30,454 bases of DNA from a virus. Numbering within the stretch: the first letter of the stretch is position 1; each line of letters starts with the position of its first letter. The notes under the pieces were generated by a model. It saw nothing but the letters and a program-made list of their open reading frames with translations, searched no databases and was not told the DNA's origin. The translations under genes were made by a program, and so were the position numbers. Positions 8,007 to 29,974 of the stretch are shown piece after piece. The stretch is from IMG/VR virus record IMGVR_UViG_3300042691_026325, positions 1 to 30,454 of that record; one strand, written 5' to 3'.

Positions 8007-10295
8007 ATGAAAATTGCAGTTATTGACAAAGCACCCAACCGTACTCGTTATTCAGACTACTTTGAGTTTGAGTATGACCAGTACCACATGAGTTCGGTGC
8101 CAATTACCAAATTGCTGAAAAAAGATGTAGACTTGGTAGTAGACTTGGAGCCATACGACTTCGTAGTCTTAGTCGGCGCAGAAGCTGCCAAAGAATACGC
8201 CAAGATTACCTCGGTAACCAACATGGCTGGACAGCTTGTCAACGACAAGTTTATTGCTATCTCAAATCCAGCAATGCTGAGCTTCAAGCCTGAAGGCAAA
8301 CCTGACTTTCAGCGTGCTGTGGATCGTATTCACAAGTACGTAAAAGGTCAACTAAAGCCTAGTGTACAAGGTGATTTTAAGGGTATTGACAGCACTGATG
8401 AAGCCAAAGAATTTTTGCGAGAAGTAATGGACAATGCCCGAGGTTATGTTGCCTGGGACACGGAAACAACTTGTCTTTATCCACGAGACGGTTACGTACT
8501 TGGTTTGTCACTAAGCTACAAAACCAAGCATGGTCGTTATATCTTAACAGACTGCCTAGACGACGAGTGCATGGACTTGTTGCAAAAGATTGCTAATGAA
8601 TACACAACAGTGTTTCACAACATGAAGTTTGACTACAAGATGATTGAGTATCACCTTGGCATTAGTTTTCCTCGTAGTCGTGTACACGACACAATGGTCA
8701 TGCACTATGTGTTAGATGAAACTGATTCACATGGTTTGAAGCCATTGGCCTTAAAATACACCGATTACGGCGACTATGATAGTGAACTTGATGACTTTAA
8801 AAAGGCATACTGTGCAGCCAATGGTTTGCTGCAAGATGACTTTACCTATGACCTTATCCCATTCGACACTATTAGCCGTTACGCTTCGATTGACACAGCC
8901 GTTACATACGAACTTTTCCACAAGTTTTGGCCCATTGTACAAGCCAACGACAAACTGCGTAAAGTTTATTCGGAAATATTGATTCCTGGTACACTGTTCT
9001 TGATGGACATGGAAGAAGTTGGTATTCCTATGAGCACAGAACGCATGGCTGCTGCTAGTAAATACCTTGATGCTGAAATTGAGGCTGCCAAGCAGGTTGT
9101 GTACTCGTTTGATGCAGTAAAACAATACGAGCGTGACAGTGGCAAAATCTTTAATCCCAACAGTGTTATGCAGCTGCGTGTTGTGCTTTTTGACTACTTG
9201 GGTCTTAACCCGACTGGCAAGAAAACAGCTACTGGTGCAGTCTCAACTGACGCAGAAGTACTTGGCGAACTATCAGATGAACATCCACTACCAGCAGCTA
9301 TCTTAAAGGTTCGTCAGCTTGGCAAGATTCAAAACACCTATATTCAAAAGATTCTACCAGAAATTGACCGTGATGGTCGCATACGTACAAATTTTAATCT
9401 TATATTTACTACTAGCGGTAGGCTTAGTAGTTCTGGGAAGTTCAACGCTCAGCAAATACCTCGCGACGATCCTATTATCAAAGGTTGCATCCAGGCTCCA
9501 GCAGGCTACAAGATTGTATCGCAAGACTTGACCACAGCTGAAATGTACTATGCGGCTGTGCTAAGCGGTGACAAGAACCTGCAAGAAGTTTTTAGTTCAG
9601 GCGGCGACTTTCACTCAACAATTGCTAAAATGGTGTTCTCATTGCCATGTGCGGTTGAAGACGTTAAAAAGCTGTTTGGAAGTATGCGTCAATCGGCTAA
9701 AGCTATCTCTTTTGGTATTTTGTACGGTTCAGGTGCTAACAAAGTATCGCAGACTGTGTCAAAAGCCACTGGTGAGGTTTACCCTGTTGAGCAGGCTCGT
9801 GACGATATTAAACAATACTTTACAAAATTCAACAAGCTAAAAAAGTGGCTTGAAGATCGCAAAAACTTTATTCAAACAAATGGTTATACATACTCATTCT
9901 TTGGCAGGAAACGCAGACTACCTAATGTGTTTAGCGCAGATAAAGGTATCGCAGCTCACGAAGTCCGTAGCGGAATCAACGCTGAAGTACAGTCACTTGC
10001 CAGTGATGTTAACTTACTTGGCGCTATGCGAACAGCACAAGAAGTTAAAGAGAAACAGCTAGATGCTAAAATCTTTATGCTGGTTCATGACTCGATTGTT
10101 GCGCTTGTAAAAGACGAAGATGTGGTGGAATACTGCGAGATCCTAAAGCGTAACACTCAACACCAGTGGGGCTGTGAAATCCCAAACACCCCAATTGGTG
10201 TAGATCAAGATATTGGCGAGGATTATAGTTTTGGACACTTTACAGAAACATACGAAATTATCGGAGATACACTGGCCCGTGTTCAGGCTAGGTGA
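8007..10295 (+). CDS. family A DNA polymerase with 3'-5' exonuclease
   Basis: The 762-residue protein has proofreading motifs YVAWDTETT (D151, E153), FHNMKFDY (N205, D209) and YASIDTAVTYELF. The polymerase motifs are A, SQDLTTAEMYYAAVLSGD (D507, E512); B, RQSAKAISFGILYGSG (561-576); and C, MLVHDSIVAL (H694-D695). No 5'-nuclease domain is present; that activity is supplied by the gene at 17040. Motif B has F569, which in family A enzymes favours discrimination against dideoxynucleotides. The protein matches the T5 polymerase type and is the replicative enzyme of this phage. It has its own promoter. Confidence 0.95.
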   Translation: MKIAVIDKAPNRTRYSDYFEFEYDQYHMSSVPITKLLKKDVDLVVDLEPYDFVVLVGAEAAKEYAKITSVTNMAGQLVNDKFIAISNPAMLSFKPEGKPDFQRAVDRIHKYVKGQLKPSVQGDFKGIDSTDEAKEFLREVMDNARGYVAWDTETTCLYPRDGYVLGLSLSYKTKHGRYILTDCLDDECMDLLQKIANEYTTVFHNMKFDYKMIEYHLGISFPRSRVHDTMVMHYVLDETDSHGLKPLALKYTDYGDYDSELDDFKKAYCAANGLLQDDFTYDLIPFDTISRYASIDTAVTYELFHKFWPIVQANDKLRKVYSEILIPGTLFLMDMEEVGIPMSTERMAAASKYLDAEIEAAKQVVYSFDAVKQYERDSGKIFNPNSVMQLRVVLFDYLGLNPTGKKTATGAVSTDAEVLGELSDEHPLPAAILKVRQLGKIQNTYIQKILPEIDRDGRIRTNFNLIFTTSGRLSSSGKFNAQQIPRDDPIIKGCIQAPAGYKIVSQDLTTAEMYYAAVLSGDKNLQEVFSSGGDFHSTIAKMVFSLPCAVEDVKKLFGSMRQSAKAISFGILYGSGANKVSQTVSKATGEVYPVEQARDDIKQYFTKFNKLKKWLEDRKNFIQTNGYTYSFFGRKRRLPNVFSADKGIAAHEVRSGINAEVQSLASDVNLLGAMRTAQEVKEKQLDAKIFMLVHDSIVALVKDEDVVEYCEILKRNTQHQWGCEIPNTPIGVDQDIGEDYSFGHFTETYEIIGDTLARVQAR

Positions 10296-18807: not shown

Positions 18808-20775
18808 ATGAACTCTCCATCAACACGCGCGCAAGTAATCACACGTCGTACCTATAATCGCCCTACCTCAGACGACGGAAAAGAATTTGAAACATGGCAA
18901 GAAACAGTTGCTCGCGTTATTGACCATCAAGAGTGGTTGTGGACACGAGCAGTAGATCGCGAACTCAATGATGTTGAGTACGCAGAATTATACGATCTTG
19001 AGCAATTGATGCTTGATCGTAAAGTATTAATGAGTGGCCGTACGCTGTGGTTGGGTGGTACTAACGTAGCTAAAACACGTGAAGCCTCTCAGTTCAATTG
19101 CAGCTTTACACACGTTGAAACAATCTATGACGTAGTTGACGTCTTATGGCTGCTATTACAGGGCTGTGGCGTTGGATTCAAGCCAATTGTTGGTACACTC
19201 AACGGATTCTCAAAGCCAATTAAAAATATTCGTGTAGTACGTAGTACACGCACATCTAAGGGCGGTAATGAAGAGAATGTGGAATACTGGGCATCTGATA
19301 CCAAAACTTGGACTATTCAAGTCGGAGACAGTGCAGAAGCTTGGGCAAAGTCTGTTGGCAAGTTGCTTGCGGGTAAGTACCCTGCTGATACTTTGGTTCT
19401 TGATTTTAGTCAACTACGACCTGCTGGTGAAAGGCTAAAAGGATATGGTTGGATTTCGTCGGGTGATGCTGCTATCAGTACTGCTTATACCGCTATTGCC
19501 AATATACTTAATGGTCGCGCTGATAGTCTGCTTACTCGCATGGATATCCTTGATATTGTTAATCATCTTGGCACCATTCTTAGTAGTCGCAGAAGTGCTG
19601 AAATCGCACTATTCGATTATGATCAACCTGAATGGGAAGAATTCGCCGTAGCCAAAAAAGATTGGTGGTTGCACAATAATCAGCACCGCACACAGTCAAA
19701 TAACAGCTTAGTATTTAAAAAGAAGCCGCTAAAATCAGACTTGGAGCGTATCTTTGGCATGATGATTGAAGCTGGTGGAAGTGAACCTGGATTTATCAAT
19801 GAAGTCGAAGCCCTCAGACGCGCTCCGTGGTTTAAGGGAGCCAATCCATGCGTTGAAATCTTACTCGGTAATAAGGCTTTCTGTAATCTTACCGAAACTG
19901 ATATTGCAAAGTTCAAAGGCGACACTGCCGGTTTGCACAACGCTGTACGACTGGCAGCTCGTGCCAACTACCGACAAACCTGTGTTAATCTTCAGGACGG
20001 CATTCTTCAGGAATCTTGGCATCTTAACAACTATTTCCTACGACTATGCGGAGTAGGTTTAACTGGTATTGCAATGCGTCCAGACATGGGCAGCTATGAC
20101 TACGAATACTTAAAGCGTACTGCTACATCAGCTGCTGTTGGTATGAGTTTGGAACTGGGATTGCCAGCACCTAAAAACGTAACTTGCATTAAGCCGTCAG
20201 GCACACTATCCAAAATCATGGATACCACAGAAGGCGTACACAAACCACTAGGAAAGTATATTTTTAACAATGTACAATTTAGCAAGCATGACCCGGTGGT
20301 TGAAAAGCTACGTCAAGCGAATTACCGTGTTATTAATCATCCTGTTGATGATTCTGGAGTTCTTGTTACGTTTCCAGTAATGTGGGACGGCGTTCCTTTT
20401 GATAAAGTTGATGGCAAAGAAGTTAATCTTGAATCAGCTGTTGTGCAACTGGAGCGTTATAAGCTTTTACAAACTAGCTGGAATCAGCAAAATACGTCAG
20501 TGACTATTAGCTATGACCCAAGTGAAGCACCTGCAATCATTGACTGGTTACTAGACAATTGGGACTGCTATGTTGGTGTGAGTTTTATCTACCGCACAGA
20601 CCCAACCAAAACTGCCAAAGATTTAGGTTATTTATACCTTCCACAAGAAGTTGTAACTGAGCAAGACTACCGTGAGTATGCTCAGACTCTGGGCACTGTT
20701 GACTTAAACGATGCCAACAGTTTTGACGAAATTACCGATGCCGAGTGTGCAACCGGTGCCTGTCCCATTAAATAA
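18808..20775 (+). CDS. nrdJ: class II (B12-dependent) ribonucleotide reductase, monomeric type
   Basis: The 655-residue protein has SQFNCSF (C98) and a buried-site motif GANPCVEILLGNKAFCNL, giving N346, C348, E350 and C359. The tail cysteine pair is ECATGACPIK. Spacing of C348-C359 (11) and of the last two cysteines (5) matches the Lactobacillus leichmannii adenosylcobalamin enzyme. There is no small radical subunit gene next to it and no ATP-cone. It would reduce nucleoside triphosphates using host cobalamin, with the glutaredoxin at 14154 as a plausible reductant. T5 itself uses the class I NrdA/NrdB pair, so this gene is a replacement. Confidence 0.9.
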   Translation: MNSPSTRAQVITRRTYNRPTSDDGKEFETWQETVARVIDHQEWLWTRAVDRELNDVEYAELYDLEQLMLDRKVLMSGRTLWLGGTNVAKTREASQFNCSFTHVETIYDVVDVLWLLLQGCGVGFKPIVGTLNGFSKPIKNIRVVRSTRTSKGGNEENVEYWASDTKTWTIQVGDSAEAWAKSVGKLLAGKYPADTLVLDFSQLRPAGERLKGYGWISSGDAAISTAYTAIANILNGRADSLLTRMDILDIVNHLGTILSSRRSAEIALFDYDQPEWEEFAVAKKDWWLHNNQHRTQSNNSLVFKKKPLKSDLERIFGMMIEAGGSEPGFINEVEALRRAPWFKGANPCVEILLGNKAFCNLTETDIAKFKGDTAGLHNAVRLAARANYRQTCVNLQDGILQESWHLNNYFLRLCGVGLTGIAMRPDMGSYDYEYLKRTATSAAVGMSLELGLPAPKNVTCIKPSGTLSKIMDTTEGVHKPLGKYIFNNVQFSKHDPVVEKLRQANYRVINHPVDDSGVLVTFPVMWDGVPFDKVDGKEVNLESAVVQLERYKLLQTSWNQQNTSVTISYDPSEAPAIIDWLLDNWDCYVGVSFIYRTDPTKTAKDLGYLYLPQEVVTEQDYREYAQTLGTVDLNDANSFDEITDAECATGACPIK

Positions 20776-20794
20776 TTTTAAATACTCATATAGC

Positions 20795-20956
20795 ATGAAA
20801 TTCACACTAACAGATCTTTCAATTGAAGAAATCAATGCAGTCTTACTTGGCCTACAAGAATTACCTGCTAAAATTTGTAACCCATTAACTCAAAAATTGC
20901 GACAACAAGCAGAGTCTCAGCTACCACAGCCAGAAACTGCAGCAACTGTGCAATAA
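20795..20956 (+). CDS. 53-aa unknown protein
   Basis: The ATG at 20795 begins MKFTLTDLSIEEINAVLLGL and continues as a helical small protein ending in QLPQPETAATVQ. The same frame is open upstream inside the reductase gene, but that part is only a shadow. The N-terminal pattern (strand, then I/L-rich helix with LQELP) is common in small phage proteins of unknown role. It is the last + strand gene before the shared terminator. Confidence 0.55.
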   Translation: MKFTLTDLSIEEINAVLLGLQELPAKICNPLTQKLRQQAESQLPQPETAATVQ

Positions 20957-20968
20957 ACTAGCCAAACA

Positions 20969-21002
20969 AAAAGCCCCTAACCATTGCTGGTTAGGGGCTT
21001 TT
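20969..21002. terminator. bidirectional rho-independent terminator
   Basis: AAAAGCCCCTAACCA (20969-20983) pairs perfectly with TGGTTAGGGGCTTTT (20988-21002) over TTGC. There are T-runs on the + side and, from the A-run, on the minus side. It ends both the + strand replication region and the converging minus-strand phoH unit. Confidence 0.93.
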
Positions 21003-21005
21003 CTT

Positions 21006-21644
21006 TTATAGTGGAGTATCCTCGTCTGAGTCTTCGTCGTCTTCTTCATCATAGTTTTCACTTTCAGGACTTAGTTCACTGAAAATCATTACTAAAATAT
21101 CACGATATGGTTCTGCAACTAAGTGCAAGTCTAACAAGTACACATCTAGGTGATTGTTGCGTAAGAGTTGCGCGTGGTACATGAACTGACCAAAAGCATC
21201 CAAATTTTCACTGATGTTTTCATTAGCATAGTCTTCAATCATTTGTGCGGCAGCCATTAGCAACATTGGTGGTATTGCAGATTTTGTGGCTACTGCCAGT
21301 AAGCGTAGTGCTTTGCGTTCACGTTCACGCATAATTGTATTGCGCTTGGCGCTGCTCCACGAGTAACCACCATCACCACCCCACAAGTCCCAAGCTACAC
21401 GACCTTTTGAGGGAAATCCTTCCTCGCCGCTACTGAAGCCAGTAGCCCGCTTGTCTACTTCATGACGTGCAAAAAAGCTGTACATACGTAGCACAGTAGA
21501 CTCACTTAGTGGTTCACGATCTTTTAGTTGGTTTGCTCGGGCTAAACCCACAAGCGTACCGCCTGGCTTGCCCTCATCTTTCCACTTTAGTGCACGACGG
21601 GCCGCTGATGCCATGCCGCTAGTGGGTTTATAACTTTTTGCCAT
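21006..21644 (-). CDS. conserved phage-domain protein with acidic tail
   Basis: The ATG at 21644 has an AGGAA site 6 bases before it and lies one base after the phoH stop; the longer open frame to 21695 only overlaps phoH. The 212 residues start with MAKSYKPTSGMASAARRALK. A conserved-looking module follows: GGTLVGLARANQLKDREPLS, VLRMYSFFARHEVDKRATGF and GRVAWDLWGGDGGYSW. I have seen this GVARAR...FARHEVD...WxLWGGD pattern in many unrelated phage proteins, where its function is not known. The middle is helical and the last 20 residues are almost all Asp and Glu. Confidence 0.7.
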   Translation of the reverse strand: MAKSYKPTSGMASAARRALKWKDEGKPGGTLVGLARANQLKDREPLSESTVLRMYSFFARHEVDKRATGFSSGEEGFPSKGRVAWDLWGGDGGYSWSSAKRNTIMRERERKALRLLAVATKSAIPPMLLMAAAQMIEDYANENISENLDAFGQFMYHAQLLRNNHLDVYLLDLHLVAEPYRDILVMIFSELSPESENYDEEDDEDSDEDTPL

Positions 21645-21645
21645 T

Positions 21646-22401
21646 TTAGTTCCTGTAGGCCATAATAATTTGTTTACACATTCTACTTCGTACAATGTCT
21701 TCGTCTAAAAACTCAACTACTTCAATACCGTCAATATCTTCTAGTCTGTCAACAGCGTCTTCTAGGCCGCTATCTGGAATATCCGATTGTTCAGTATCAC
21801 CTGAAAAAATCATCTTGCAGTTCTTGCCAATACGTGAAAGTAACATTTTCATCTCCTCACGCGTACAGTTTTGTGCTTCGTCTACTAAGACAACGCAGTC
21901 GTCAAATGTAGTTCCTCGTAAAAACCCTAGCGGAGTAGGCTCAATGTCTTTTGAACGCAAACAATACTCATAAAAGCCTTTTCCTAGTGCCTTGGTAAAA
22001 ATTGAGTCAAAAGGCAATAGGTATGGAGCATACTTTTCTTCTAGTGTGCCTGGTAAAAAACCAAGGCCTCTGCCAGTTTCAATGTTGGGTCTGGTTAGGA
22101 TAACCTTGTTAACACGCTTATAGTATAGTTCTCGAGCTGCATAGTTTGCTGCAATAAATGTTTTACCAGTTCCTGCACTACCTATTCCAAATATAACGTC
22201 ATTGTTCTCAATCGCATCTAAATACTCACTTTGTACGAAGTTTAGTGGTTGAACTTCTTTAAAGGTATAGTTACGTTGAGGCTGAGGTTCTTCAAAACCT
22301 TCATGCTTACTTTGACGCAGTCTAGATTTTTCAGCCTGTGTGGGGCTTGTAGACTTTTTTGCTGGAAAGGTGCGATGTGATTTACCACTATTTCTTGCCA
22401 T
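21646..22401 (-). CDS. phoH: PhoH-like ATPase
   Basis: The 251-residue protein opens with a basic, disordered-looking 45 residues. The P-loop domain follows: FGIGSAGTGKTFIAANYAA (Walker A 74-81), VILTRPNIETGRGLGFLPG, then RGTTFDDCVVLVDEAQNCT (Walker B) and MIFSGDTEQSDIPDSGL. This is the PhoH/YlaK family, common in T5, T4 and marine phages. Bacterial relatives are linked to RNA metabolism and phosphate stress, while the phage role is unclear. An AAGGA site (22407-22411) sets the start, and its own promoter lies 40 bases upstream. Confidence 0.9.
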   Translation of the reverse strand: MARNSGKSHRTFPAKKSTSPTQAEKSRLRQSKHEGFEEPQPQRNYTFKEVQPLNFVQSEYLDAIENNDVIFGIGSAGTGKTFIAANYAARELYYKRVNKVILTRPNIETGRGLGFLPGTLEEKYAPYLLPFDSIFTKALGKGFYEYCLRSKDIEPTPLGFLRGTTFDDCVVLVDEAQNCTREEMKMLLSRIGKNCKMIFSGDTEQSDIPDSGLEDAVDRLEDIDGIEVVEFLDEDIVRSRMCKQIIMAYRN

Positions 22402-22424
22402 GTACTTCCTTGTTGGTTTATAAA

Positions 22425-22455
22425 ATCCGGTGGAGTACTAATTATACCACCGGAT
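22425..22455 (-). terminator. terminator-like hairpin enclosing the phoH -10 box
   Basis: ATCCGGTGG (22425-22433) and CCACCGGAT (22447-22455) are perfect inverted repeats. In transcripts running in from the upstream minus-strand genes they form a 9-bp GC-rich stem followed by TTTAT, like a weak terminator. The 13-base loop contains the -10 box of the phoH promoter. As DNA, the same repeat could be an operator bracketing the transcription start. Confidence 0.6.
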
Positions 22456-22469
22456 AAGCGCACTGTCAA
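22441..22469 (-). promoter_or_regulatory. consensus sigma70 promoter for phoH
   Basis: Read on the minus strand, TTGACA (22469-22464), 17 bases, TATAAT (22446-22441): both hexamers are perfect consensus. It drives phoH and the gene at 21006. Confidence 0.9.
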
Positions 22470-22477
22470 ATAAAAAT

Positions 22478-22669
22478 TTATTTATCCTTTTTATCAGGTA
22501 CTTTTGTACCTTCCAGCTTCTTGTGTACTGTAATGGTTTTACAAACTTCTTTAGTTTGCTTTGTTTTAGGATCCGTTTGGTCAACACATACCTTTTTTGT
22601 TTCGGCAGCGATCGCCAATGGTGGCGACAATAAGCTAAATGTTAGTGCGGCTAAAATTAATGTTTTCAT
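22478..22669 (-). CDS. small exported protein
   Basis: The 63-residue protein has a clear Sec signal peptide (MKTLILAALTFSLLSPPLAI, cleavage probably after AIA-A near residue 22). A very charged mature part of about 40 residues follows, rich in Lys and Thr (VCVDQTDPKTKQTKEVCKTI) with two cysteines that could form a disulphide. A GGAGA site precedes the ATG. It is the last gene of the exported-protein operon. Function is unknown. Confidence 0.7.
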   Translation of the reverse strand: MKTLILAALTFSLLSPPLAIAAETKKVCVDQTDPKTKQTKEVCKTITVHKKLEGTKVPDKKDK

Positions 22670-23122
22670 TTAAATCTCCGGTTGTGGTGCTGGTTGTGGT
22701 GCTGGCTTGCCGTTAATCATGCGAACTTCTGCACTAGTGCCATTGAATCCGGCTGTGGTTGAAATACCTGGGCTAAACGTAGGTTCTGTTTTAGGTGGCA
22801 CATAACTGGTTTTGGCGGCAGCGGCAGCATTTTCTTGCGCTTGTTTCATTAGTGCAATAGATGCATCAACTTCTTCTTTGGTGCCACCTGCAAGCATAAT
22901 TCCTGATAGAGTACCAGTTAAAAAAGTAGCAATTGGCACGATTAGTTCAAAAAACTTTTGATCGATTGGGCTAATTGCATTTAGTGGTTGCGTTACGAAA
23001 ATTAAACTGTATAACACAACAAAAACAATCCCTGTTAGTGTTAGTGCCAAGCATATTCCAATAAAGAACTTTAATCGAGCCATTAGTTGCTCGTCGGTAT
23101 AGAGAATTGTGTTATTTTGCAC
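22670..23122 (-). CDS. two-span membrane protein with Pro-rich tail
   Basis: The 150-residue protein starts at a GTG with AGGAG seven bases upstream. Two hydrophobic segments (about 19-43, FFIGICLALTLTGIVFVVLY; about 59-79, FELIVPIATFLTGTLSGIML) are followed by a helical, Ala-rich stretch. The cytoplasmic or periplasmic tail is Pro/Thr/Ser-rich and ends PAPQPAPQPEI. Holin-like topology is possible and no other dedicated holin is obvious, but the long tail and distance from the endolysin make this uncertain. It overlaps the upstream gene by 11 bases. Confidence 0.65.
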   Translation of the reverse strand: MQNNTILYTDEQLMARLKFFIGICLALTLTGIVFVVLYSLIFVTQPLNAISPIDQKFFELIVPIATFLTGTLSGIMLAGGTKEEVDASIALMKQAQENAAAAAKTSYVPPKTEPTFSPGISTTAGFNGTSAEVRMINGKPAPQPAPQPEI

Positions 23123-23381
23123 AAGAGGCTCCTGTGGTTGGTGTGGATGTGGCTGCAGCTGGCGTTGCCTGAGGGTCTAAGCGAGGGTCACGTTGACCTT
23201 TGAAAATGTGGTCTGGGCAAGTGCGAGTTACATCACAAATAGGTCGCTTGCACTGTGGTGTATCCCAGTTTTCTGGATTTTGGCACGGATAACGAAAACG
23301 GTCTCCTCCAAAAAATGCCAGTGCAAGCGGCAGTATTAGCAACACTCCTAGCCATTTAAATAGTTTTAAATCTACATTCAT
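23112..23381 (-). CDS. membrane-anchored or exported Cys-rich protein
   Basis: The 89-residue protein has an N-terminal hydrophobic segment (residues 5-24, LKLFKWLGVLLILPLALAFF) acting as anchor or signal. Cysteines then occur in YPCQNPENWDTPQCKRPICD and TRTCPDHIF, with one more near the end (GASCAK). This suggests an oxidised periplasmic domain. The tail is Ala/Thr/Pro low-complexity. It lies one base downstream of the coiled-coil protein gene and overlaps the next. No family is recognised. Confidence 0.65.
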   Translation of the reverse strand: MNVDLKLFKWLGVLLILPLALAFFGGDRFRYPCQNPENWDTPQCKRPICDVTRTCPDHIFKGQRDPRLDPQATPAAATSTPTTGASCAK

Positions 23382-23382
23382 A

Positions 23383-23937
23383 TTACTTTCCGGCTAGTGG
23401 ATTATCTAGAGCTTTTTGTATTTTGTCGTCAACACTTTTATTCATGCGCTCAACCTTGGTTTCAGTTTCACGCTTTAGTTTGTCCATGTCATCACGCGCA
23501 CGTTGCAGTGAAGTTTCTACATTTCGGGCCAGTACTTTTAAGTCTTGATCTGTTTCACGTTGTGCTTGCTTTACACTGCGCTCAATCTGCTCGGTTACTG
23601 ATTCGTTACGACGAATATCAGTTTTTAAGTCGTTTTTAATATCACGAGTATAGTCAGTGGTTTTGCTAGAGTTTTCTTCGATCACGGCAAGGCGCTTATC
23701 AAAGTCGCTTAGGTCAGGAGCCGCATACTCAGCAATTTTCTTTTTCATACTTTGATAGTCTTTGTAGACTTCAAAAGTACCGTATAAGCCACCCAGTAGT
23801 GAACTAACAAGTGTAAAAGCTACCATAAGCTTAGCCGGAGTAAACTCGTAACCTCCAATGCTAATAACTGTGTCTTTACTTGCATACTGTTTAGCCGCTG
23901 CTTGTAAGTCATCTATTTTATTGTCTAAGTTAGACAT
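23383..23937 (-). CDS. membrane protein with long coiled coil
   Basis: The 184-residue protein has an AGGAGA site 5 bases before the ATG. It has an amphipathic N-terminus (MSNLDNKIDDLQAAAKQYAS), one membrane span at about residues 34-52 (LMVAFTLVSSLLGGLYGTFE), and then roughly 110 residues of charged heptad-like helix, including SVTEQIERSVKQAQRETDQD and DMDKLKRETETKVERMNKSV. It probably forms an oligomeric stalk from the inner membrane. Similar single-span coiled-coil proteins are common in marine and freshwater phages without known role. A structural or lysis-related function is possible. Confidence 0.65.
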   Translation of the reverse strand: MSNLDNKIDDLQAAAKQYASKDTVISIGGYEFTPAKLMVAFTLVSSLLGGLYGTFEVYKDYQSMKKKIAEYAAPDLSDFDKRLAVIEENSSKTTDYTRDIKNDLKTDIRRNESVTEQIERSVKQAQRETDQDLKVLARNVETSLQRARDDMDKLKRETETKVERMNKSVDDKIQKALDNPLAGK

Positions 23938-23945
23938 ATTATCTC

Positions 23946-24374
23946 CTATTTACTGCCGGTGTTTTCAAACTTCAAGTTTCTGAGATTGTTGATCTCACCT
24001 TCAAGTTTTTGAATCTCCATGCGTTTCTTTCTTAGTTCTAGCTGATACAGCTCATTACAGTCTAGGCGTTCTTTGGGCGCACCAATTGGTATGATTATTC
24101 TGCCATATAAACCAACGTTTTTTTGTGGGTCAAGCGGTGTAGTGCTCAACTGCTGTTGATTGTTATCACGATTAACAAGACCAATAACGCCAAACTCAAG
24201 GTTAGTGCTAGAACCAATAGCCATCGAACAATCAAGACCGTTAGCTCTAAAACTATCTGACTGAAAACTACCAGGCAAGCCTGGTAGTGAAAGATTCAAG
24301 GATCCGGTAGTATTAGCACCAGCAACACCGCAGAAAAATAACAGTGCAATACTACATTGTTTTAATTTATTCAT
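23946..24374 (-). CDS. exported protein, 142 aa
   Basis: A Sec signal peptide (MNKLKQCSIALLFFCGVAGA, cleavage after AGA-N) is followed by a Gly/Ser/Leu-rich, beta-like stretch (NLSLPGLPGSFQSDSFRANG). Then come MAIGSSTNLEFGVIGLVNRD and VGLYGRIIIPIG, and a C-terminal coiled coil (ELRKKRMEIQKLEGEINNLR). Two cysteines (LDCS, LDCN) lie in the mature part. The combination resembles a periplasmic adaptor or anchoring protein. It overlaps the upstream gene (TAATG). No family is recognised. Confidence 0.65.
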   Translation of the reverse strand: MNKLKQCSIALLFFCGVAGANTTGSLNLSLPGLPGSFQSDSFRANGLDCSMAIGSSTNLEFGVIGLVNRDNNQQQLSTTPLDPQKNVGLYGRIIIPIGAPKERLDCNELYQLELRKKRMEIQKLEGEINNLRNLKFENTGSK

Positions 24375-24760
24375 TATTTAAATTTTGAGCAGACTCGGGA
24401 AGACACTGAAGTACCTTGAGCGTCCTGTTTTAGTAGTCGAGATTCGGTACAAATATATACAACTCTACCAACGTCCTGAGCTTTTACATACACATCAATA
24501 AACTTAGTTTCTAAGTATTCTATGCGTACCATTTTGCCCTGAGATGCCGCAAAAGGTAGTTTATTCCAATCTTTGTCGTATACATCTAGCTCATAAAACC
24601 ATATCTCACGGCGTTTATTAAATAGCTCCATTTTTGCTTGCTGTACTCCTTGAACAAACGAAGGTTCAAAACTAAAATAAGTTGGAGTAAATTGGTGGGC
24701 ATTGGCCAGCCCACCAGTTAGAAAAAATAGCACTAACAGTAGGTTACGGAAAAATTGCAT
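24374..24760 (-). CDS. exported Ig-like protein, possibly PapD-like
   Basis: The ATG at 24760 gives MQFFRNLLLVLFFLTGGLAN with signal cleavage near ANA-H. A TTG at 24775 would overlap the preceding gene and lengthens the charged start. The mature part alternates strands: FTPTYFSFEPSFVQGVQQAK, MELFNKRREIWFYELDVYDK, then MVRIEYLETKFIDVYVKAQD and VVYICTESR. This layout resembles the N-terminal domain of PapD-type periplasmic chaperones, though it is half their length. Cysteines at about 101 and 125 may pair. The neighbouring pilin-like gene makes the idea more attractive, but the similarity is weak and unverified. Confidence 0.6.
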   Translation of the reverse strand: MQFFRNLLLVLFFLTGGLANAHQFTPTYFSFEPSFVQGVQQAKMELFNKRREIWFYELDVYDKDWNKLPFAASQGKMVRIEYLETKFIDVYVKAQDVGRVVYICTESRLLKQDAQGTSVSSRVCSKFK

Positions 24761-24764
24761 AGTG

Positions 24765-25262
24765 TTACTTAGCAATACACTCCGCTACGACTACTGCGCG
24801 ATACTCACCTGCTGGAAAAGACTTCTCAAAACCATAGGTTGCTTTTGAAGTAGTAGAAAACCAAACGCTGCCTGGTACAACCAAGTCGATTTCTGTGGTG
24901 TTGTTGTATACAATTTTATTGGTTGTATACGCTGACATAGCTGCATCACTTACCCGGCTCACATCAACTTGACCAGTCCAGTTTACTGCATCAACCAGCA
25001 CAGGACTAGTAGTAAAGCTACTTGGTGCAGTAATAGTAGCTTTGTAGAAGCCGCCTTGTACTACGTCGTAACGTACCACAGGAGAAACACCGCCGTCTGT
25101 TCGGGCAGTGCTTAATAAATCAGGTGTTGGGTTACCATACACACCTGGTGTATCTGTGTTAATAACACACTTAGAAGTAACATTACCACGAATAGGTACT
25201 TCTGCGCTTTGAGCCGCTAGCCCAACGACTAGTAGCAGGGATAAAGTTAATTGCTTAATCAT
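24765..25262 (-). CDS. exported pilin-like (spore coat U / fimbrial type) protein
   Basis: The signal peptide is MIKQLTLSLLLVVGLAAQSA. The mature protein starts with EVPIRGNVTSKCVINTDTPG, has repeated beta strands and ends FPAGEYRAVVVAECIAK. A cysteine in the first strand pairs plausibly with one in the last strand, and the GxYxAxVxxxC ending is typical of chaperone-usher-type subunits and CsuA/B or spore-coat-U domains. I infer a surface or periplasmic beta-sandwich protein. It overlaps the upstream exported protein by 4 bases (ATGA). It could also be an unrelated Ig-fold protein. Confidence 0.6.
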   Translation of the reverse strand: MIKQLTLSLLLVVGLAAQSAEVPIRGNVTSKCVINTDTPGVYGNPTPDLLSTARTDGGVSPVVRYDVVQGGFYKATITAPSSFTTSPVLVDAVNWTGQVDVSRVSDAAMSAYTTNKIVYNNTTEIDLVVPGSVWFSTTSKATYGFEKSFPAGEYRAVVVAECIAK

Positions 25263-26122
25263 TTAGGTTCCTTTATTTGATTAAATTGAGAGTTAATCAT
25301 AGCTTGATGCAATTCTTGCTGGCTTTGATTAAGTCTACGGCTATTACGGCTATCGGGCAGAACCTTATCTTTGAGCACTATGGTTTCTGCATATGTTCCA
25401 CCTGGCATTGATACACTGTACTGTGCAAATCCAGGTATATTATTAAGGGAATCTAGCTTAAACCATAATGAAAGCGCTTGTGCGTTTAGGAGTAGGTTAG
25501 TGCCACGACTAGGAGGTTCGGTTGGCTTACGGAAATTTGCATTTTCAATTAAAAATTTACGATTACGTTCTTGTTCTTCGGCGGTTTCTAGTAGGCTAGT
25601 GTTCCAGGTTGGCTCTATAACCTGTTCGGCGGGCGTGTAGCCTGTGAGAGTTTGTGGCGGTCTGTAGTTTGGGCAGCTTGTGTCAGTTACAGGCTCTATT
25701 TTACAAGTGTCGTATCGGTACACATACCTAACATTAGGGTCTGTTACCTGACCAACACCTTCTAAGCGTATTTGTCCTGGGCCCCATAAGTTAATGGGTA
25801 TGCTGTCAGTAGCCACTGTTTTGGTAATAGTATTGCCAGGCATTCCAGACCAATCATCACGACTACGAAACACATAGCCAGTACCACCAGCACGCAAGTT
25901 TTCAACATTTACCACAAGCGGGTCTTGTGTGTTTTTAACGGCTGTATAGGAGTACTGAACAGCATTAACTACTAGACCTGTGTACTGTGGTAATACTTCT
26001 TGCATTACCCAATTTAATCCAAACTGAGCTGCGTTGTTTGATCTTGTGTTTACTGTCTCAGAGTAAGAGTAAGAGTAAAATAGCAAGCAAACCGCCGCCG
26101 CCAAGCAATGTTTTAGTGTCAT
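25259..26122 (-). CDS. large exported protein, 287 aa
   Basis: The signal peptide is MTLKHCLAAAVCLLFYSYSY with cleavage near YSYS-ET. The first mature half is beta-rich: LVVNVENLRAGGTGYVFRSR, DDWSGMPGNTITKTV, WGPGQIRLEGVGQVTDPNVR and VYRYDTCKIEP, with cysteines in TCKIEP and SCPNY. The second half is helical and charged (TSLLETAEEQERNRKFLIEN). A middle Asn/Pro region, AQALSLWFKLDSL, separates it from a final helix. No enzyme motif is visible. It begins 65 bases inside the gene at 26058, so translation is tightly coupled. It is probably the main periplasmic component of this gene set. Confidence 0.65.
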   Translation of the reverse strand: MTLKHCLAAAVCLLFYSYSYSETVNTRSNNAAQFGLNWVMQEVLPQYTGLVVNAVQYSYTAVKNTQDPLVVNVENLRAGGTGYVFRSRDDWSGMPGNTITKTVATDSIPINLWGPGQIRLEGVGQVTDPNVRYVYRYDTCKIEPVTDTSCPNYRPPQTLTGYTPAEQVIEPTWNTSLLETAEEQERNRKFLIENANFRKPTEPPSRGTNLLLNAQALSLWFKLDSLNNIPGFAQYSVSMPGGTYAETIVLKDKVLPDSRNSRRLNQSQQELHQAMINSQFNQIKEPK

Positions 26123-26597
26123 CGGTTAGTCCTTTGCTTTTGGGATTTGCTAGAGGTTGTTGTGCTTCGTTGGTTTTCCAAGCTGCACGAGCTTCAGATC
26201 CAATTGCTCCATCATAAGGACAAGGAGTACCTGCCATCATCATTGCATCAAAAACTCTGCGGTCTTGGCATAAGGTACTAACAGCAGCAACCTTCATGCC
26301 CATGTCAAACAGTGTTTTTGACAGCTTTAGTCGTTCGCAGTTTAAGTCTGCGGTAGTAGTTCCAGCACTAATACCCAAGATTTGAGTTTGCACAGCACCT
26401 GCTACACCCACAGTACAAAGGTCACTATTGGCTGTGTTGATTGTGGGACTAATTGCACTGGCTGGAGGAGAGCGCACAGTACTATCTGAACGTGTGATAA
26501 TATTTGAGTTTGTGGTAACTGTACTGCCTAAATCTTGTGCTAGCACATTGCCAGCCAAAAAGCAAGCTGCTAATACCAGTTGTTTTAAATAATTCAA
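26058..26597 (-). CDS. exported protein with C-terminal membrane segment
   Basis: The start is a TTG at 26597 with AGGAG about 6 bases upstream. The 179 residues have a signal peptide (MNYLKQLVLAACFLAGNVLA, then QDLG). A Ser/Thr-rich stretch follows, then LCTVGVAGAVQTQILGISAG, NCERLKLSKTLFDMGMKVAA and LCQDRRVFDAMMMAGTPCPY. The four cysteines there may be paired. The end is TLLGGGGLLAILLLLLL, a membrane anchor. I recall the pattern CERLRLSRxLxxMGM...CQDxRVxxAMxxxGxPCPY from other phage proteins of unknown role. It follows the endolysin stop directly and overlaps the next gene. Confidence 0.7.
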   Translation of the reverse strand: MNYLKQLVLAACFLAGNVLAQDLGSTVTTNSNIITRSDSTVRSPPASAISPTINTANSDLCTVGVAGAVQTQILGISAGTTTADLNCERLKLSKTLFDMGMKVAAVSTLCQDRRVFDAMMMAGTPCPYDGAIGSEARAAWKTNEAQQPLANPKSKGLTDDTKTLLGGGGLLAILLLLLL

Positions 26598-26598
26598 A

Positions 26599-27225
26599 TT
26601 ACGCTCCTAGCACGTGCAATGCATGGTTATAATGTTTAATTCGGTCTTCTAGTCCAATGGTTCCGCCATTGATGCGTTTGGTTAGTGTAAGGATATCGCC
26701 GCGATCTGCCCAAGTGTTTAACTTATTGGTTTCCCAAAACCAACAAGCCGACTGCGCAGCACCTTCAAAGGTTTCTAAGTATTCAGCAGCCTCTTCAACA
26801 CTAATCTCCAGGCTAGCTGCAAACCAAGTATAGTTGTCACGGCCTGTAAGCTGAATTAATCCTTTGCCAGCAAAACGCCAGCCATCGCCACTTTCTGGAG
26901 GTCCGTTGCCCATGCGGTTGGCGTATACTAAGTTTGCAATTGCCTGCTGCTTGTCAGGTCTGCTGGCATACTGCTGTGCCAGCTCATCTGTGGGAAAGTA
27001 CTTGGGAAAAATCTTGCGAAGTGTCACCGCCTTGTAGTTTAAGTTTTCACGCAGTGCAGTAAAATTACCAGACTCGTGTGCACACTGTGCAACAAAAGCA
27101 GCAATACGTTGTGGTGTATTGATTTCGTAGTCAGGAAGCAGCTGAGCTAGCGCACCGTGCCACTGTTTAACATAAGGATTTTTAGGAATCAATTGCTGTA
27201 GTTGGGGTAAAGTTAGTTGAGTCAC
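26599..27225 (-). CDS. GH19 chitinase-like endolysin
   Basis: The start is a GTG with a GGA site, overlapping the o-spanin stop (GTGA). The 208 residues carry the GH19 glycoside hydrolase pattern: RIAAFVAQCAHESGNFTALR (catalytic Glu of HESG), ENLNYKAVTLRKIFP, RMGNGPPESGDGWRFAGKGL and IQLTGRDNYTWF. The GDGxxFxGRG(K)xIQLTGRxNY signature is nearly intact. It cleaves the peptidoglycan glycan strand. It has no signal peptide, so a holin or host export would be needed. It sits directly next to the spanins. Confidence 0.92.
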   Translation of the reverse strand: MTQLTLPQLQQLIPKNPYVKQWHGALAQLLPDYEINTPQRIAAFVAQCAHESGNFTALRENLNYKAVTLRKIFPKYFPTDELAQQYASRPDKQQAIANLVYANRMGNGPPESGDGWRFAGKGLIQLTGRDNYTWFAASLEISVEEAAEYLETFEGAAQSACWFWETNKLNTWADRGDILTLTKRINGGTIGLEDRIKHYNHALHVLGA

Positions 27226-27488
27226 TTTAGTCCTTTAAAGATAATTTGTTGCTTGCTATACCACTCCTGCCAGGCTTCTAGTTTAACCAAGCAGCTGTAG
27301 TACTCTGAGTAGTTGAGTGTAACTGTTCGGGCAACATCACTGAGCTTGGGGTTAGCTTCAAGCTGTTTGAGTTCGGGACACCGTTGCATGCTTTGCAAGC
27401 CTGGCGGCTCGGGCCAAGTTTGTTGAACTGGCACAACTGTGGTGCAACCAGTTAGTAACAGTGTTAAGCTAAGTAGTATAATTTTCAT
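27222..27488 (-). CDS. o-spanin (Rz1-like outer-membrane lipoprotein)
   Basis: The 88-residue protein has a lipoprotein signal (MKIILLSLTLLLTGCTTVVP) with lipobox LTGC, C15 acylated. The mature part begins with a Pro-containing stretch (VPVQQTWPEPPGLQS) and ends in helix (KLEAWQEWYSKQQIIFKGLK), with cysteines at 37 and about 66. Position just after the i-spanin gene (ATGA overlap) and before the endolysin supports o-spanin function: linking the two membranes and disrupting the outer one at lysis. It is separate from, not nested inside, the i-spanin gene. Confidence 0.82.
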   Translation of the reverse strand: MKIILLSLTLLLTGCTTVVPVQQTWPEPPGLQSMQRCPELKQLEANPKLSDVARTVTLNYSEYYSCLVKLEAWQEWYSKQQIIFKGLK

Positions 27489-27898
27489 CGTGTAGCTGCC
27501 TTATTATGTGCATTTACAAACTCTGGTGGAATTGTACAACGTTCGTCCAGTTTAACTACCTCGCGGTCAATGTACTTGACCACAGTTTCGCCACGCTGTT
27601 TAACAATCTTGGTTTGTGTTACCAGCTTTTCACGTACTACTTCGTTGACCACTTGTGACTGAGCTTCGGCTGCCGCAACCTTGGCCTGTAGTTCTTGTGC
27701 AGCTTGTTGCCAGGCATTGTTGGCATACAACATTCCCAAAGTGTACAATCCCAGTGCTAGTACCACAGTGCCTGCAATGCTTAACACAGTCCGGTACATG
27801 TAAAGTACAGGCACACGGCTTAATCCCAGTGAGACCAAGCCTAAAATTGGTAGTAGATACCAGACAAAGTCTGGTGTAAATTTAAAAATCCAAAACAT
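27485..27898 (-). CDS. i-spanin (Rz-like inner-membrane protein)
   Basis: The ATG at 27898 (MFWIFKFTPDFVWYLLPILG) was chosen; an in-frame start at 27931 also exists. Two hydrophobic segments (about 9-27 and 38-58, VLSIAGTVVLALGLYTLGML) precede a coiled coil from AWQQAAQELQAKVAAAEAQS to about residue 100. The end, CTIPPEFVNAHNKAATR, is the usual Rz ending with a cysteine before an Ile/Pro stretch. Rz proteins normally have one span; a second one may anchor or add holin-like behaviour. It pairs with the lipoprotein encoded next. Confidence 0.8.
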   Translation of the reverse strand: MFWIFKFTPDFVWYLLPILGLVSLGLSRVPVLYMYRTVLSIAGTVVLALGLYTLGMLYANNAWQQAAQELQAKVAAAEAQSQVVNEVVREKLVTQTKIVKQRGETVVKYIDREVVKLDERCTIPPEFVNAHNKAATR

Positions 27899-27915
27899 AG
27901 TGGCTTTCTGTAGAC

Positions 27916-28011
27916 TCAGCCAGGTTGCCACGGCTGTGTGATTTTGGGGCCACTACCAATAGTAGCCAATGTAGCATCCTGAATGTTGTTGCTGGAATTT
28001 TTTGTTGTCAT
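27916..28011 (-). CDS. 31-aa fibre-start-like ORF, possibly a remnant
   Basis: The ATG at 28011 is preceded by the tandem repeat region and the TGA is at 27916-27918. The peptide begins MTTKNSSNNIQDATLATIGS and ends PWQPG. Its first ten residues resemble the start of the tail-fibre-like protein at 28922 (MTTKISTANIQ), and the bases match closely over the first 15 codons. It is therefore either a tiny gene or the copied 5' end of a fibre gene whose body has been lost. It lies between the fibre gene and the lysis cassette. Confidence 0.4.
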   Translation of the reverse strand: MTTKNSSNNIQDATLATIGSGPKITQPWQPG

Positions 28012-28052
28012 ATCTTATACGTCCTATCTTATACGTCATATCTTATACGTCC
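28011..28052. repeat. three tandem 14-bp repeats
   Basis: TATCTTATACGTC plus C, A or C is repeated at 28011-28024, 28025-28038 and 28039-28052. On the minus strand each copy reads GACGTATAAGATA. The ATG of the 31-codon ORF is formed at the last base of the array, and TATAAG within each copy resembles a -10 box. The unit length is not a multiple of three. Confidence 0.92.
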
Positions 28053-28091
28053 GCAGTTGTCTCTTCATCCCAGTAGTACATCTGACCGTCA

Positions 28092-28409
28092 TCAGGCGGT
28101 AAAAATGTAGACTGCACCGGCACCAGTGATGCTGTTAGGGTCTTCCGAATAGGCACCAACTACTACCGTATCAACATCAATTGCCACTGAGTATCCAAAA
28201 AGATCATTTACTTGTGCGTCACTGGCTTGTATCTTGGCTTGTTGTGTCCAAGTATTACCTGATCTGGTAAAAATGTAGGCAGATCCGGCATCGCTGATGC
28301 TGTTAGGGTCTTCCTGATAGGCACCAACCACCACTGTATCGCCACTAATTGCCACTGAGAATCCAAACAGATCATCTGCTTGTGCGTCACTGGCTTGTAT
28401 CTTTTGCTG
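28092..28409 (-). repeat. two 168-bp FG-GAP coding repeats
   Basis: The fibre gene contains a tandem duplication with a 168-bp period (56 codons): residues 172-227 and 228-276. Most of TTGCCACTGA ... CACTGGCTTGTATCTT is identical between 28180-28236 and 28348-28404. The downstream copy is incomplete, cut after the YIFT strand. Confidence 0.88.
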
Positions 28410-28922
28410 TTGAACAGGCAAAGCCCAATTGGGCTCAAAGTTTAATGTAAACGTTGAAGCAGCTGTTGTTGCAAGATTGACGCCATCGCTTGCTGTAAAT
28501 GTGATGCTGAATGTACCTTCGTGATCGGTGTTTGTACTTGGCGTGATGGTAAACACATTGTCAGCTTGAGATATAGTAGCTGTATTACCTAATGATCCGC
28601 TAGTGACCTGATAACTCCATGTAATTGGAATTCCCTCTGGATCCGTAGCAATCAATGTGATCACAGTTGGCGTGCCGTCTTTGGCAAATAGATAATTTGC
28701 ATCAGGGCCACTAGTGATCGATGGGTTGGTGTTGATTAGTGCAATATTGAACCAGCCAGTACCATTCCACATGTATAATCTGTTGTTTTCAACAACAAAT
28801 GCCAGCGATCCTTGAGCGTTTCCCGCCAGCGGAAGTTGGGATAAGGTAGCATAGGTCTTGTTGCCCTGTAGTAGTTCAAGCGAGGTGGTTTGAATGTTGG
28901 CTGTTGAAATTTTTGTTGTCAT
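28092..28922 (-). CDS. tail-fibre-like protein with Ig-like region and FG-GAP repeats
   Basis: The 276-residue protein starts MTTKISTANIQTTSLELLQG, a fibre-type N-terminus, followed by a virion-attachment-like strip (GSLAFVVENNRLYMWNGTGW). Residues about 65-165 form a cadherin/Ig-like domain (ATDPEGIPITWSYQVTSG ... HEGTFSITFTASDGVNLA). From 172 come two FG-GAP (integrin-type) repeats of 56 residues: KIQASDAQADDLFGFSVAIS, GDTVVVGAYQEDPNSI, GSAYIFTRSGNTW. The second copy stops abruptly after VYIFTA. Such repeats usually continue into a full propeller, so this looks truncated. AAGGAAA precedes the start, which overlaps the glycosyltransferase stop. The likely role is host recognition. Confidence 0.75.
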   Translation of the reverse strand: MTTKISTANIQTTSLELLQGNKTYATLSQLPLAGNAQGSLAFVVENNRLYMWNGTGWFNIALINTNPSITSGPDANYLFAKDGTPTVITLIATDPEGIPITWSYQVTSGSLGNTATISQADNVFTITPSTNTDHEGTFSITFTASDGVNLATTAASTFTLNFEPNWALPVQQQKIQASDAQADDLFGFSVAISGDTVVVGAYQEDPNSISDAGSAYIFTRSGNTWTQQAKIQASDAQVNDLFGYSVAIDVDTVVVGAYSEDPNSITGAGAVYIFTA

Positions 28923-29974
28923 GGTTTTCCTTTGAACACCTCGTAATTTTGTTGTAATCTGGCATTGGTGGGTTCGTGTTGCAGTGCAAGCTCAACTTGC
29001 TGGACTGCAACGGTTTGTAAACCCAGGTGGTGTGCTGCAATGCTGCACAAGTCATGTGGCAGCGACCCCCACACCTTAGGGTCCATTGTATACACAAGTT
29101 CTTTGTTGGCAATGGCTAGTGCGTGTTGGCAACTTGCGTAACACTCGGCCCACTGCTGAGTTTGATACGACAACATTGCCAGTGTGACCCAAGGCTCACG
29201 AGTGCCTGGTGCTTCACAGCAGCTGAGTCGGGCGTGCTTGACGGCGTTGGTGACATCGCCCAATGCCCAGTAGCTGTCCGACATAACGCGATAAGCATAA
29301 GCACGTTCGTTGTTCCAAGTTGCGCGAGGCAGTTTTAAATATCGCTCACAGGCTGCAATGGCTTCGGCCCAACGGCGGTAGAAGCTGAGTTCACGTGCGT
29401 AGTAAAAGGCATTGCGTGGGCAATGTGGGTCCTCTGTAACAGCCAGTTCTAGGAGATCAAGATACTGACCACGTGACTTGGTGTTGTCTGGGTGGTGTGT
29501 TACCAACAACATATCCGTGTGTGCCCACACTTCTTGTGTGCGTGCATCTGGTACTGGATACTCATGACAAGGGTGGTGCCAGTGATAACCACGGCGATGG
29601 TGAATCTTTTCGTAGTAGAAGCTAATACCACTGCCCCAGTCAAATTTATAACGCAGTCGTGTGGTATCGGACTTCCACACACGTTCAATTTCGGCTCGCC
29701 AGCCAGGTTCTAAGACCTCGTCTAAGTCTAAGGAGATACACACATCCACATCATGTGGAACCAATGCTAGTGCAGCATCTCTGGCACGATCAAATCGCCA
29801 GGGTTGAATTGAGATTTGGTGCACTTGTGCACCTGATTCTTGTGCTAGGGCTACGGTATTGTCTGTGGATCCTGTGTCAGCAATTACTATGTAATCTGCG
29901 TCTTGCGCACTGGCGCAAAAACGTTGGACAAATTGCTGTTCATTTTTTGATATTGCGTAAACTGCGATTTTCAT
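28919..29974 (-). CDS. GT2-family glycosyltransferase with TPR-like C-terminus
   Basis: The 351-residue protein starts with the GT-A fold: MKIAVYAISKNEQQFVQRFC, then YIVIADTGSTDNTVALAQES and ISLDLDEVLEPGWRAEIERV, where DLDE is the DxD metal site. It then has WHHPCHEYPVP, and about 170 residues of paired helices such as YYARELSFYRRWAEAIAACE and PWVTLAMLSYQTQQWAECYA, typical of TPR units. Phage enzymes of this type next to fibres often modify virion or host glycans. The leader has no Shine-Dalgarno-like bases. By eye this gene is more GC-rich than those at 22-26 kb. It overlaps the fibre gene by 4 bases. Confidence 0.85.
   Translation of the reverse strand: MKIAVYAISKNEQQFVQRFCASAQDADYIVIADTGSTDNTVALAQESGAQVHQISIQPWRFDRARDAALALVPHDVDVCISLDLDEVLEPGWRAEIERVWKSDTTRLRYKFDWGSGISFYYEKIHHRRGYHWHHPCHEYPVPDARTQEVWAHTDMLLVTHHPDNTKSRGQYLDLLELAVTEDPHCPRNAFYYARELSFYRRWAEAIAACERYLKLPRATWNNERAYAYRVMSDSYWALGDVTNAVKHARLSCCEAPGTREPWVTLAMLSYQTQQWAECYASCQHALAIANKELVYTMDPKVWGSLPHDLCSIAAHHLGLQTVAVQQVELALQHEPTNARLQQNYEVFKGKP

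Follow-up and report, generated by a model that had tools for sequence, protein, structure and literature searches.

Gene content and conservation of the g1-g6 block

We analysed a window of 30,454 nucleotides of viral DNA (positions 1 to 30,454 of IMG/VR record IMGVR_UViG_3300042691_026325), in which nine minus-strand open reading frames (ORFs), g1 to g9, run from position 26597 down to 22478. A preliminary description had counted eight genes here and read them as a dedicated periplasmic assembly; we counted nine ORFs, of which only g1-g6 (26597-23383) form the conserved unit. The block opens with g1 (26058-26597; 179 amino acids), a putatively exported protein with a conserved four-cysteine domain and an uncharged hydrophobic C-terminal tail, which matches phrog_20531 (E 1e-12). 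It is followed by g2 (25259-26122; 287 amino acids), also predicted to be exported, with an N-terminal part that is beta-rich by eye, a charged middle and a conserved C-terminal motif. Next come g3 (24765-25262; 165 amino acids), a putatively exported protein modelled as a beta sandwich, and g4 (24374-24775; 133 amino acids), a putatively exported protein modelled as a single PapD-type domain that contains two cysteines and stops at strand G1. Judged by eye, g5 (23946-24374; 142 amino acids), likewise a candidate for export, has strand-like segments between its two cysteines and then a C-terminal helix. The last member, g6 (23383-23937; 184 amino acids), combines one N-terminal membrane span with a coiled coil and has no cysteine.

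As the preliminary description had stated, the genes lie on the minus strand behind an endolysin gene (26599-27225, minus strand; PHROG endolysin, E 5e-75), which is one base upstream of g1. The overlaps or gaps of a few bases that it had reported hold for the junctions from g2 to g9, where neighbours overlap by up to 11 bases or stand up to 8 bases apart, but not for g1 and g2, which overlap by 65 bp. Within this overlap (26058-26122) the hydrophobic tail of g1 is encoded in one frame and the signal peptide of g2 in another. Pfam searches with g1-g9 returned no family above its cut-off, clear PHROGs matches were obtained for g1, g3, g5 and g8 only, all of them of 'unknown function', and the libraries searched held no functional annotation for any member of g1-g6. 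Sequence searches of the PDB with profiles of g1-g5, and of the g3 and g4 relatives from Vibrio phages described below, gave nothing significant. Among named phages there was no DNA match to 20000-28500 and no protein match to the g2 or g3 of the window.

Relatives of the block were collected by scanning IMG/VR with g2, which gave 21 loci, and with a g5 profile, from which the best 80 of at least 578 relatives were taken. Profiles of all the genes were then searched in 105 loci, 99 from IMG/VR and six from named phages. The 99 loci were selected by similarity to g2 or g5, blocks that lack these genes lying outside the sample; 63 of them are distinct by the end of g5, several come from the same or near-identical viruses, and two (contigs of 57.6 and 68.9 kb, L031 and L032) belong to the window's own phage, with 14 of 14 compared proteins 100% identical. 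ORF starts were set mechanically, which makes the counts of overlaps and signal peptides approximate.

Results showed that the order of g1-g6 and their location on a single strand are kept in 99 of the 99 IMG/VR loci. All six genes are present in 88, and in the other 11 the missing genes fall beyond the end of the contig. The start of g2 lies within g1 in 90 of 90 pairs, with a median overlap of 65 bp, and inserts longer than 150 bp occur between members only at the g5/g6 junction (20 of 97). The most conserved member is g1, with a median identity of 0.63. Outside the block the neighbours turn over strongly: when loci whose g5 proteins are less than 60% identical were compared, any family was common to the three upstream ORFs in 15 of 1071 locus pairs and to the three downstream ORFs in 53 of 1155. 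Conservation as a block or of single genes had been set beforehand as the deciding test of the proposed assembly, and it is the block that is kept, with two sub-modules that also occur apart. The eight-gene set nevertheless has to be trimmed, since g7-g9 were found in 22 of the 105 loci and the endolysin in 19, every one in the window's clade. A scan of 84,980 bacterial and archaeal genomes with the g5 profile, seeded by exact patterns and blind to distant relatives, gave one partial relative, in a metagenome-assembled genome (contig of 6.9 kb), against the at least 578 in IMG/VR, and the block therefore appears to be mostly viral. In those parts of the open-licence literature available to us we recognised no described system of this six-gene kind.

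A simple signal-peptide rule was positive in 64 of 68 distinct relatives of g1, 71 of 76 of g2, 67 of 70 of g3, 72 of 72 of g4 and 69 of 69 of g5, compared with 140 of 647 flanking phage ORFs of 90-320 amino acids. The products of g1-g5 thus look exported, as judged from their sequences, and the earlier claim of at least five signal peptides is borne out, g9 adding a further one by eye. The same rule was positive in 50 of 70 g6 proteins through the N-terminal span, which we read as probably uncleaved and which the positive-inside rule, applied by eye, places in the N-in orientation. Cysteines were counted beyond residue 22 in the distinct proteins of each family. Four are found in 65 of 68 g1 proteins, and two in 64 of 76 g2 proteins (four in another 4), 64 of 70 g3, 72 of 72 g4 and 69 of 69 g5 proteins, while g6 has zero in 72 of 72. 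The C-terminus of g3 is rigid, its last cysteine lying exactly 3 residues before the end in 70 of 70 relatives; that of g4 is also fixed among relatives, with a terminal CxKxK in 52 of 72 proteins. The tail of g1 passes the hydropathy cut in 67 of 68 proteins and its last 12 residues are uncharged in 68 of 68; g1 corresponds to the protein that had been described as ending in a membrane anchor. Lipobox-like motifs are scarce in g1-g6 (0-5 of the 68-76 distinct proteins per family).

Promoter motifs were counted in 45 loci outside the window's clade. An exact TATAAATA, which we take to be a T4-type late promoter motif, precedes g1 by no more than 180 bp in 14 of them (0.96 expected). Within 120 bp upstream of g1, ATAAATA is present in 21 loci (1.2 expected), a sigma-70-like pair in nine (1.5 expected) and one or the other in 28 (2.6 expected), while applied to the starts of g2-g6 the test was positive in 0-5 of 44-45 loci. 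This placement is consistent with g1-g6 behaving as one transcription unit with one promoter upstream of g1. In the window's clade the motif was found upstream of g1 in 0 of 12 loci; there g1 is presumably transcribed together with the lysis genes, because it closely follows the endolysin.

Two separable sub-modules, g1-g2-g6 and g3-g4-g5

Parts of the block occur separately in other phages. A tblastn search with g1 found 11 phage records, eight of them pelagiphages or roseophages. When IMG/VR was searched with the g1 of pelagiphage HTVC115P and the best 80 of 335 loci were read, 59 carried g1 and g6, one carried g1, g2 and g6, and 20 carried g1 alone; g3, g4 and g5 were found in none of these 80. 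In the 60 loci that carry g1 together with g6, a single ORF of 200 amino acids or more lies between these two genes. It overlaps g1 in 53 of the 60 (median 71 bp), similarly to g2 in the block, and hhalign relates the C-terminus of this large protein to the C-terminus of g2 (89.5%, E 2e-6), with controls below 2%. The HTVC115P-like module therefore has the same g1 and g6 families in the same order, but differs from the six-gene block by the absence of any g3-g5 found, by the size of its g2 counterpart (about 420-580 amino acids) and by being hypothetical in the HTVC115P annotation. Pfam searches with the large proteins of pelagiphages, roseophages and Vibrio phages gave nothing above cut-off.

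Two annotations in these phages deserve mention. In MW202481 (L030 8272-9378) a protein annotated as 'transport protein tonB' occupies the place of g2 between relatives of g1 and g6 and has a charged, proline-containing stretch. In Roseobacter phage CRP-207, gp73 (L029 3292-3873), annotated as 'putative lysozyme', is a weak relative of g6 (E 0.0025) with an N-terminal span, a coiled coil and a C-terminal NPL; judged by these features, the lysozyme label is probably wrong.

The other sub-module was found in Vibrio phages, where tblastn with g5 matched 183 records and the Vibrio g4-like and g3-like proteins matched 179 each. In 51E28.4, 1.205.O, Thalassa, pVp-1, pVco-14 and D81 the cassette consists of two larger proteins (345-1188 amino acids), then g3-like, g4-like and g5-like proteins in the same order as in the block, and a small lipoprotein. 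It differs from the block by the two larger proteins alongside and in being hypothetical or not annotated, and no g1, g2 or g6 was found in the fetched stretches of 51E28.4 and 1.205.O, the two that were searched. Profile comparison linked the window and Vibrio g3 families at 94-95% with signal peptides trimmed, and the two share a PHROG as well; the g5 link scored 99.7% untrimmed. Untrimmed window-Vibrio scores (96-99.7%) are inflated, because the score of the g3 profile against 20 E. coli fimbrial proteins fell from 78.7% to 0.9% once signal peptides were trimmed. Taken together, these surveys show that g1-g2-g6 and g3-g4-g5 are separable. The occurrence of sub-modules in pelagiphages and in cultured Vibrio phages (179-183 matching records) opens the function of the block to direct deletion.

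The Vibrio cassette (loci L025, L026 and L112-L115) recurs in five unrelated neighbourhoods, as if it were a mobile unit. Outside it, 13 of 15 pairs of stretches share no ORF (ORFs of at least 80 amino acids, E 1e-5) and one pair shares a single ORF; we count five neighbourhoods because only the stretches of Thalassa and pVp-1 have 21 ORFs in common. In these two phages the cassette neighbours an annotated holin and endolysin, and in pVco-14 it is flanked by major capsid and tail genes. Two of its genes are unannotated open frames, a g4-like one in 1.205.O (L026 7654-8052) and a g5-like one in D81 (L115, around 8400-8690), where a different frame is annotated.

Predicted folds of g4 and g3

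AlphaFold2 models of g3 and g4 were built from 14-sequence alignments. The g4 model is confident (mean predicted local distance difference test score, pLDDT, 85) and the g3 model fair (79). With g4, Foldseek returned 19 matches at E <= 1e-3, of which 16 are pilus chaperones, with SafB at the top (1.1e-4) and FimC, FaeE, DraB and Caf1M also among them. VIA-align superposed residues 26-133 of g4 on residues 1-114 of FimC with a Z score of 10.9 and 3.2 Å over 101 residues. On the strength of the model we predict that g4 consists of one PapD-type chaperone domain by itself, in line with the earlier suggestion of a possibly PapD-like protein. In a viral library the g4 fold had six matches at E <= 1e-3, the best (5.9e-6) unnamed and the others a herpesvirus glycoprotein, uncharacterised phage proteins and one protein named thiamine pyridinylase.

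With the pilus chaperones FimC, PapD, SafB and Caf1M, g4 would thus share the fold of the N-terminal domain, aligned from directly behind the signal peptide as far as strand G1, as well as a C-terminal strand rich in Lys and an adjoining gene for a beta-sandwich partner, g3. It differs from them in several respects. A second chaperone domain is absent, the 133-residue protein ending where residue 114 of FimC aligns, and the 14-sequence alignment contains no invariant Arg at the mature N-terminus. The profile PapD_N (PF00345) matched nothing in the window, the window g4, 16 related records or five Vibrio g4 proteins, and the g4 profile reached at most about 4% against eight E. coli chaperones. 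None of 20 related records, which include fragments, matched the usher profile PF00577, whose control was positive in E. coli. A chaperone-usher pilus was rejected on these grounds, namely no usher and no PapD_N match in the records searched and no second domain in g4. Profile searches for the Csu and spore-coat-U families had also been proposed; the SCPU profile PF05229 gave no match in the window (its control was positive in one genome, below cut-off), the window g3 or five Vibrio g3 proteins, and a Csu/spore-coat-U pilin was rejected as well.

The protein that had been called pilin-like, g3, was modelled as a beta sandwich with weak matches: Foldseek gave none at E <= 1e-3, and the best VIA-align Z score (7.1) was to an amylase and not to a pilin. 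By eye, few residues precede the first cysteine of g3, so that no donor strand is clear. The model is that of a beta sandwich which may be, at best, weakly pilin-like.

Candidate roles of the block at the host envelope

The retention of the block in all the IMG/VR loci, and of its parts in pelagiphages and Vibrio phages, indicates that it must matter at the host envelope. The rigid block, the export signals, the single promoter, the predicted chaperone-type domain, encoded next to a partner whose C-terminus is fixed, and the candidate inner-membrane anchors all argue for a complex assembled in the envelope late in infection. The architecture of this system is fairly well supported; we infer that the products form a complex, its topology, the relation of g4 to g3 as chaperone to subunit, and the job of the whole. 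The earlier proposal of a dedicated periplasmic assembly is thus supported in outline, by an exported set conserved as a block, but not in the literal form of a pilus. Our leading explanation, to which we give somewhat less than even confidence, is that g1-g6 encodes a phage-specific late envelope complex that most likely occludes or remodels the surface of the infected cell. The products would be exported through the host Sec system; g6, with its inner-membrane span and periplasmic coiled coil, and g1, with its hydrophobic C-terminal tail, would act as inner-membrane anchors, and g2 would span the periplasm. The PapD-type mini-chaperone g4 would escort and cap the beta-sandwich subunit g3, with g5 completing the outer part. 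With infected cells and their debris occluded or remodelled at the surface, late superinfection would fail and progeny would not be lost on spent envelopes, which would make the block a multi-protein exclusion system.

We prefer surface occlusion because of the precedent of T5 Llp, an exported phage protein that closes the receptor (PMC9586334), and because the Vibrio trio stands with two larger proteins, which may be fibre-like, and a small lipoprotein. Like Llp-type exclusion lipoproteins, the system is phage-encoded and probably periplasmic, and the Vibrio cassette likewise ends in a small lipoprotein (by eye); it differs in being a block of six genes with rare lipobox-like motifs and late-type promoters. 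A T5 Llp chain appeared in the PDB search with g4 at E 0.83 and was treated as chance.

Several results weigh against this explanation. The g1 proteins of the window and of pelagiphages are 49-57% identical, which disfavours a receptor-specific blocker. T4-type late promoters would suit a role late in infection, but many exclusion proteins are made early (PMC9586334). The likeness of g4 to PapD is one of predicted fold, from which a chaperone function does not follow: three of its 19 Foldseek matches are not pilus chaperones (the PapD-like domain of CEP192, the MSP domain of VAP-A and a superoxide dismutase), and eukaryotic MSP domains and the immunoglobulin-like domain of the chitosanase CsxA align to g4 with Z scores of 10.3-10.4. 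The window-Vibrio link of g4 drops from 96% to 75% once signal peptides are trimmed, and to 12% in global mode. Matches of g3 to FimG, the PapG pilin domain and CsuA/B are weak (Foldseek E 0.01-0.06), and when g5 was tested by hydrophobic moment for the amphipathic strands of an outer-membrane beta hairpin, the result fell short of significance, the observed value being reached by 205 of 2000 shuffles.

A more specific proposal, which we regard as possible but tentative, is that tailed phages encode a miniature chaperone-assisted, envelope-spanning machine of two interchangeable modules, a core of g1-g2-g6 and an outer g3-g4-g5, without an usher. In such a machine the core might occupy the inner membrane and periplasm, and the single-domain g4 might deliver g3 together with g5, an arrangement that we hold just as tentatively. 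If such a machine is built, it would be a new viral envelope apparatus with an usher-less use of a PapD-type domain, and an unrecognised way of building a structure in or on the infected cell.

Ranked close behind surface occlusion, though rather unlikely when taken by itself, is a lysis or egress apparatus, in which the complex would act alongside holin, endolysin and spanins to control or aid the breakdown of the envelope as infection ends. Besides the late-type promoters upstream of g1, gene neighbourhoods speak for it. In the window's clade the block comes directly after lysis genes, the order in the window being two spanin-like genes (27222-27488 and 27485-27931, minus strand; Rz-like spanin PHROGs, E 2e-5 and 7e-4), the endolysin and g1-g9. 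Lysozyme-like and holin-like genes, identified by eye, lie behind g1-g2-g6 in locus L148, and the g3-g5 cassette adjoins the annotated holin and endolysin in Thalassa and pVp-1. Such neighbours are not general. Five seed proteins were searched within 3 kb downstream of g6 in 36 three-gene and 80 six-gene loci: relatives of the L148 lysozyme were found in 6 of 36 and 1 of 80, of the L148 holin in 6 of 36 and 0 of 80, of a second holin-like protein in 5 of 36 and 0 of 80, and of a Mosig holin-like protein in 0 of 36 and 1 of 80. The remaining seed, an EF-hand-like protein with two spans (L076 10082-10408 and relatives) that is possibly holin-like, occurred in 25 of the 80 six-gene loci and in none of the 36 three-gene loci. 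No general link to lysis genes was found with these five families on the downstream side; lysis neighbours are frequent in some clades only. Moreover, the pVco-14 cassette lies between major capsid and tail genes, and the window already encodes a spanin-like pair, which suggests that the host has an outer membrane, whose lysis is provided for separately. Although g6 shares an i-spanin-like topology (N-terminal span and coiled coil) with Rz/Rz1, it has no lipoprotein partner within g1-g6, and the spanin PHROGs match 27222-27931 and not g6.

It is improbable, though still worth weighing against surface occlusion, that the block makes an usher-less surface filament or display structure, with g3 secreted and polymerised or displayed, g4 as its chaperone, and either g5 or g2 providing the exit and anchor. 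Pilus chaperones anchor the C-terminus of the subunit through a conserved Arg/Lys pair, and the fixed C-termini of g3 and g4, like the PapD-type predicted fold of g4, would fit such a relation; the failure to find an usher in any of the 20 records, the weak pilin matches and unclear donor strand of g3, and the outcome of the strand test on g5 stand against it. Separate small, moron-like envelope-modifying genes that merely travel together would agree with the occurrence of the sub-modules apart, but this is doubtful in view of the invariant order, the long g1/g2 overlap, the single promoter and the strong turnover of the other neighbours.

Equally doubtful is a role as virion proteins or associates of adhesins, in which the products would be partners for the fibre-like or structural proteins whose genes immediately precede the block. 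Five of 59 loci (L006, L010, L015, L020 and L021) have a phrog_1645-type virion structural gene no more than 400 bp upstream of g1, and two larger proteins precede the trio in the six Vibrio cassettes, but export signals and paired cysteines do not suit cytoplasmic virion assembly. In the other 54 loci, a few of which have little DNA ahead of g1, the phrog_1645-type family was not found upstream, and a fixed upstream virion gene was rejected. A conduit for DNA entry, which the preliminary description had also listed, is unlikely for proteins that would be made late and exported by the infected cell.

Searches with PADLOC profiles (E <= 0.1) did not place g1-g9 in a known anti-phage defence system; the only matches were of g6 to ZorA (best 2.7e-5), for the most part along its coiled coil, and a single weak one of g5 (0.052). 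Behind the block lie the three clade-specific genes on the minus strand, whose features were judged by eye: g7 (23112-23381; 89 amino acids), Cys-rich with an N-terminal anchor; g8 (22670-23122; 150 amino acids), with two membrane spans and a match to phrog_25359 (E 4e-18); and g9 (22478-22669; 63 amino acids), a small, putatively exported protein. The two-span and the Cys-rich anchored proteins of the preliminary description correspond to g8 and g7, and its protein with a span and a long coiled coil to g6. Upstream of the lysis genes, at 28919-29974, a beta-1,4-glycosyltransferase-like gene (phrog_13126, E 7e-97) lies beside a weakly tail-fibre-like gene.

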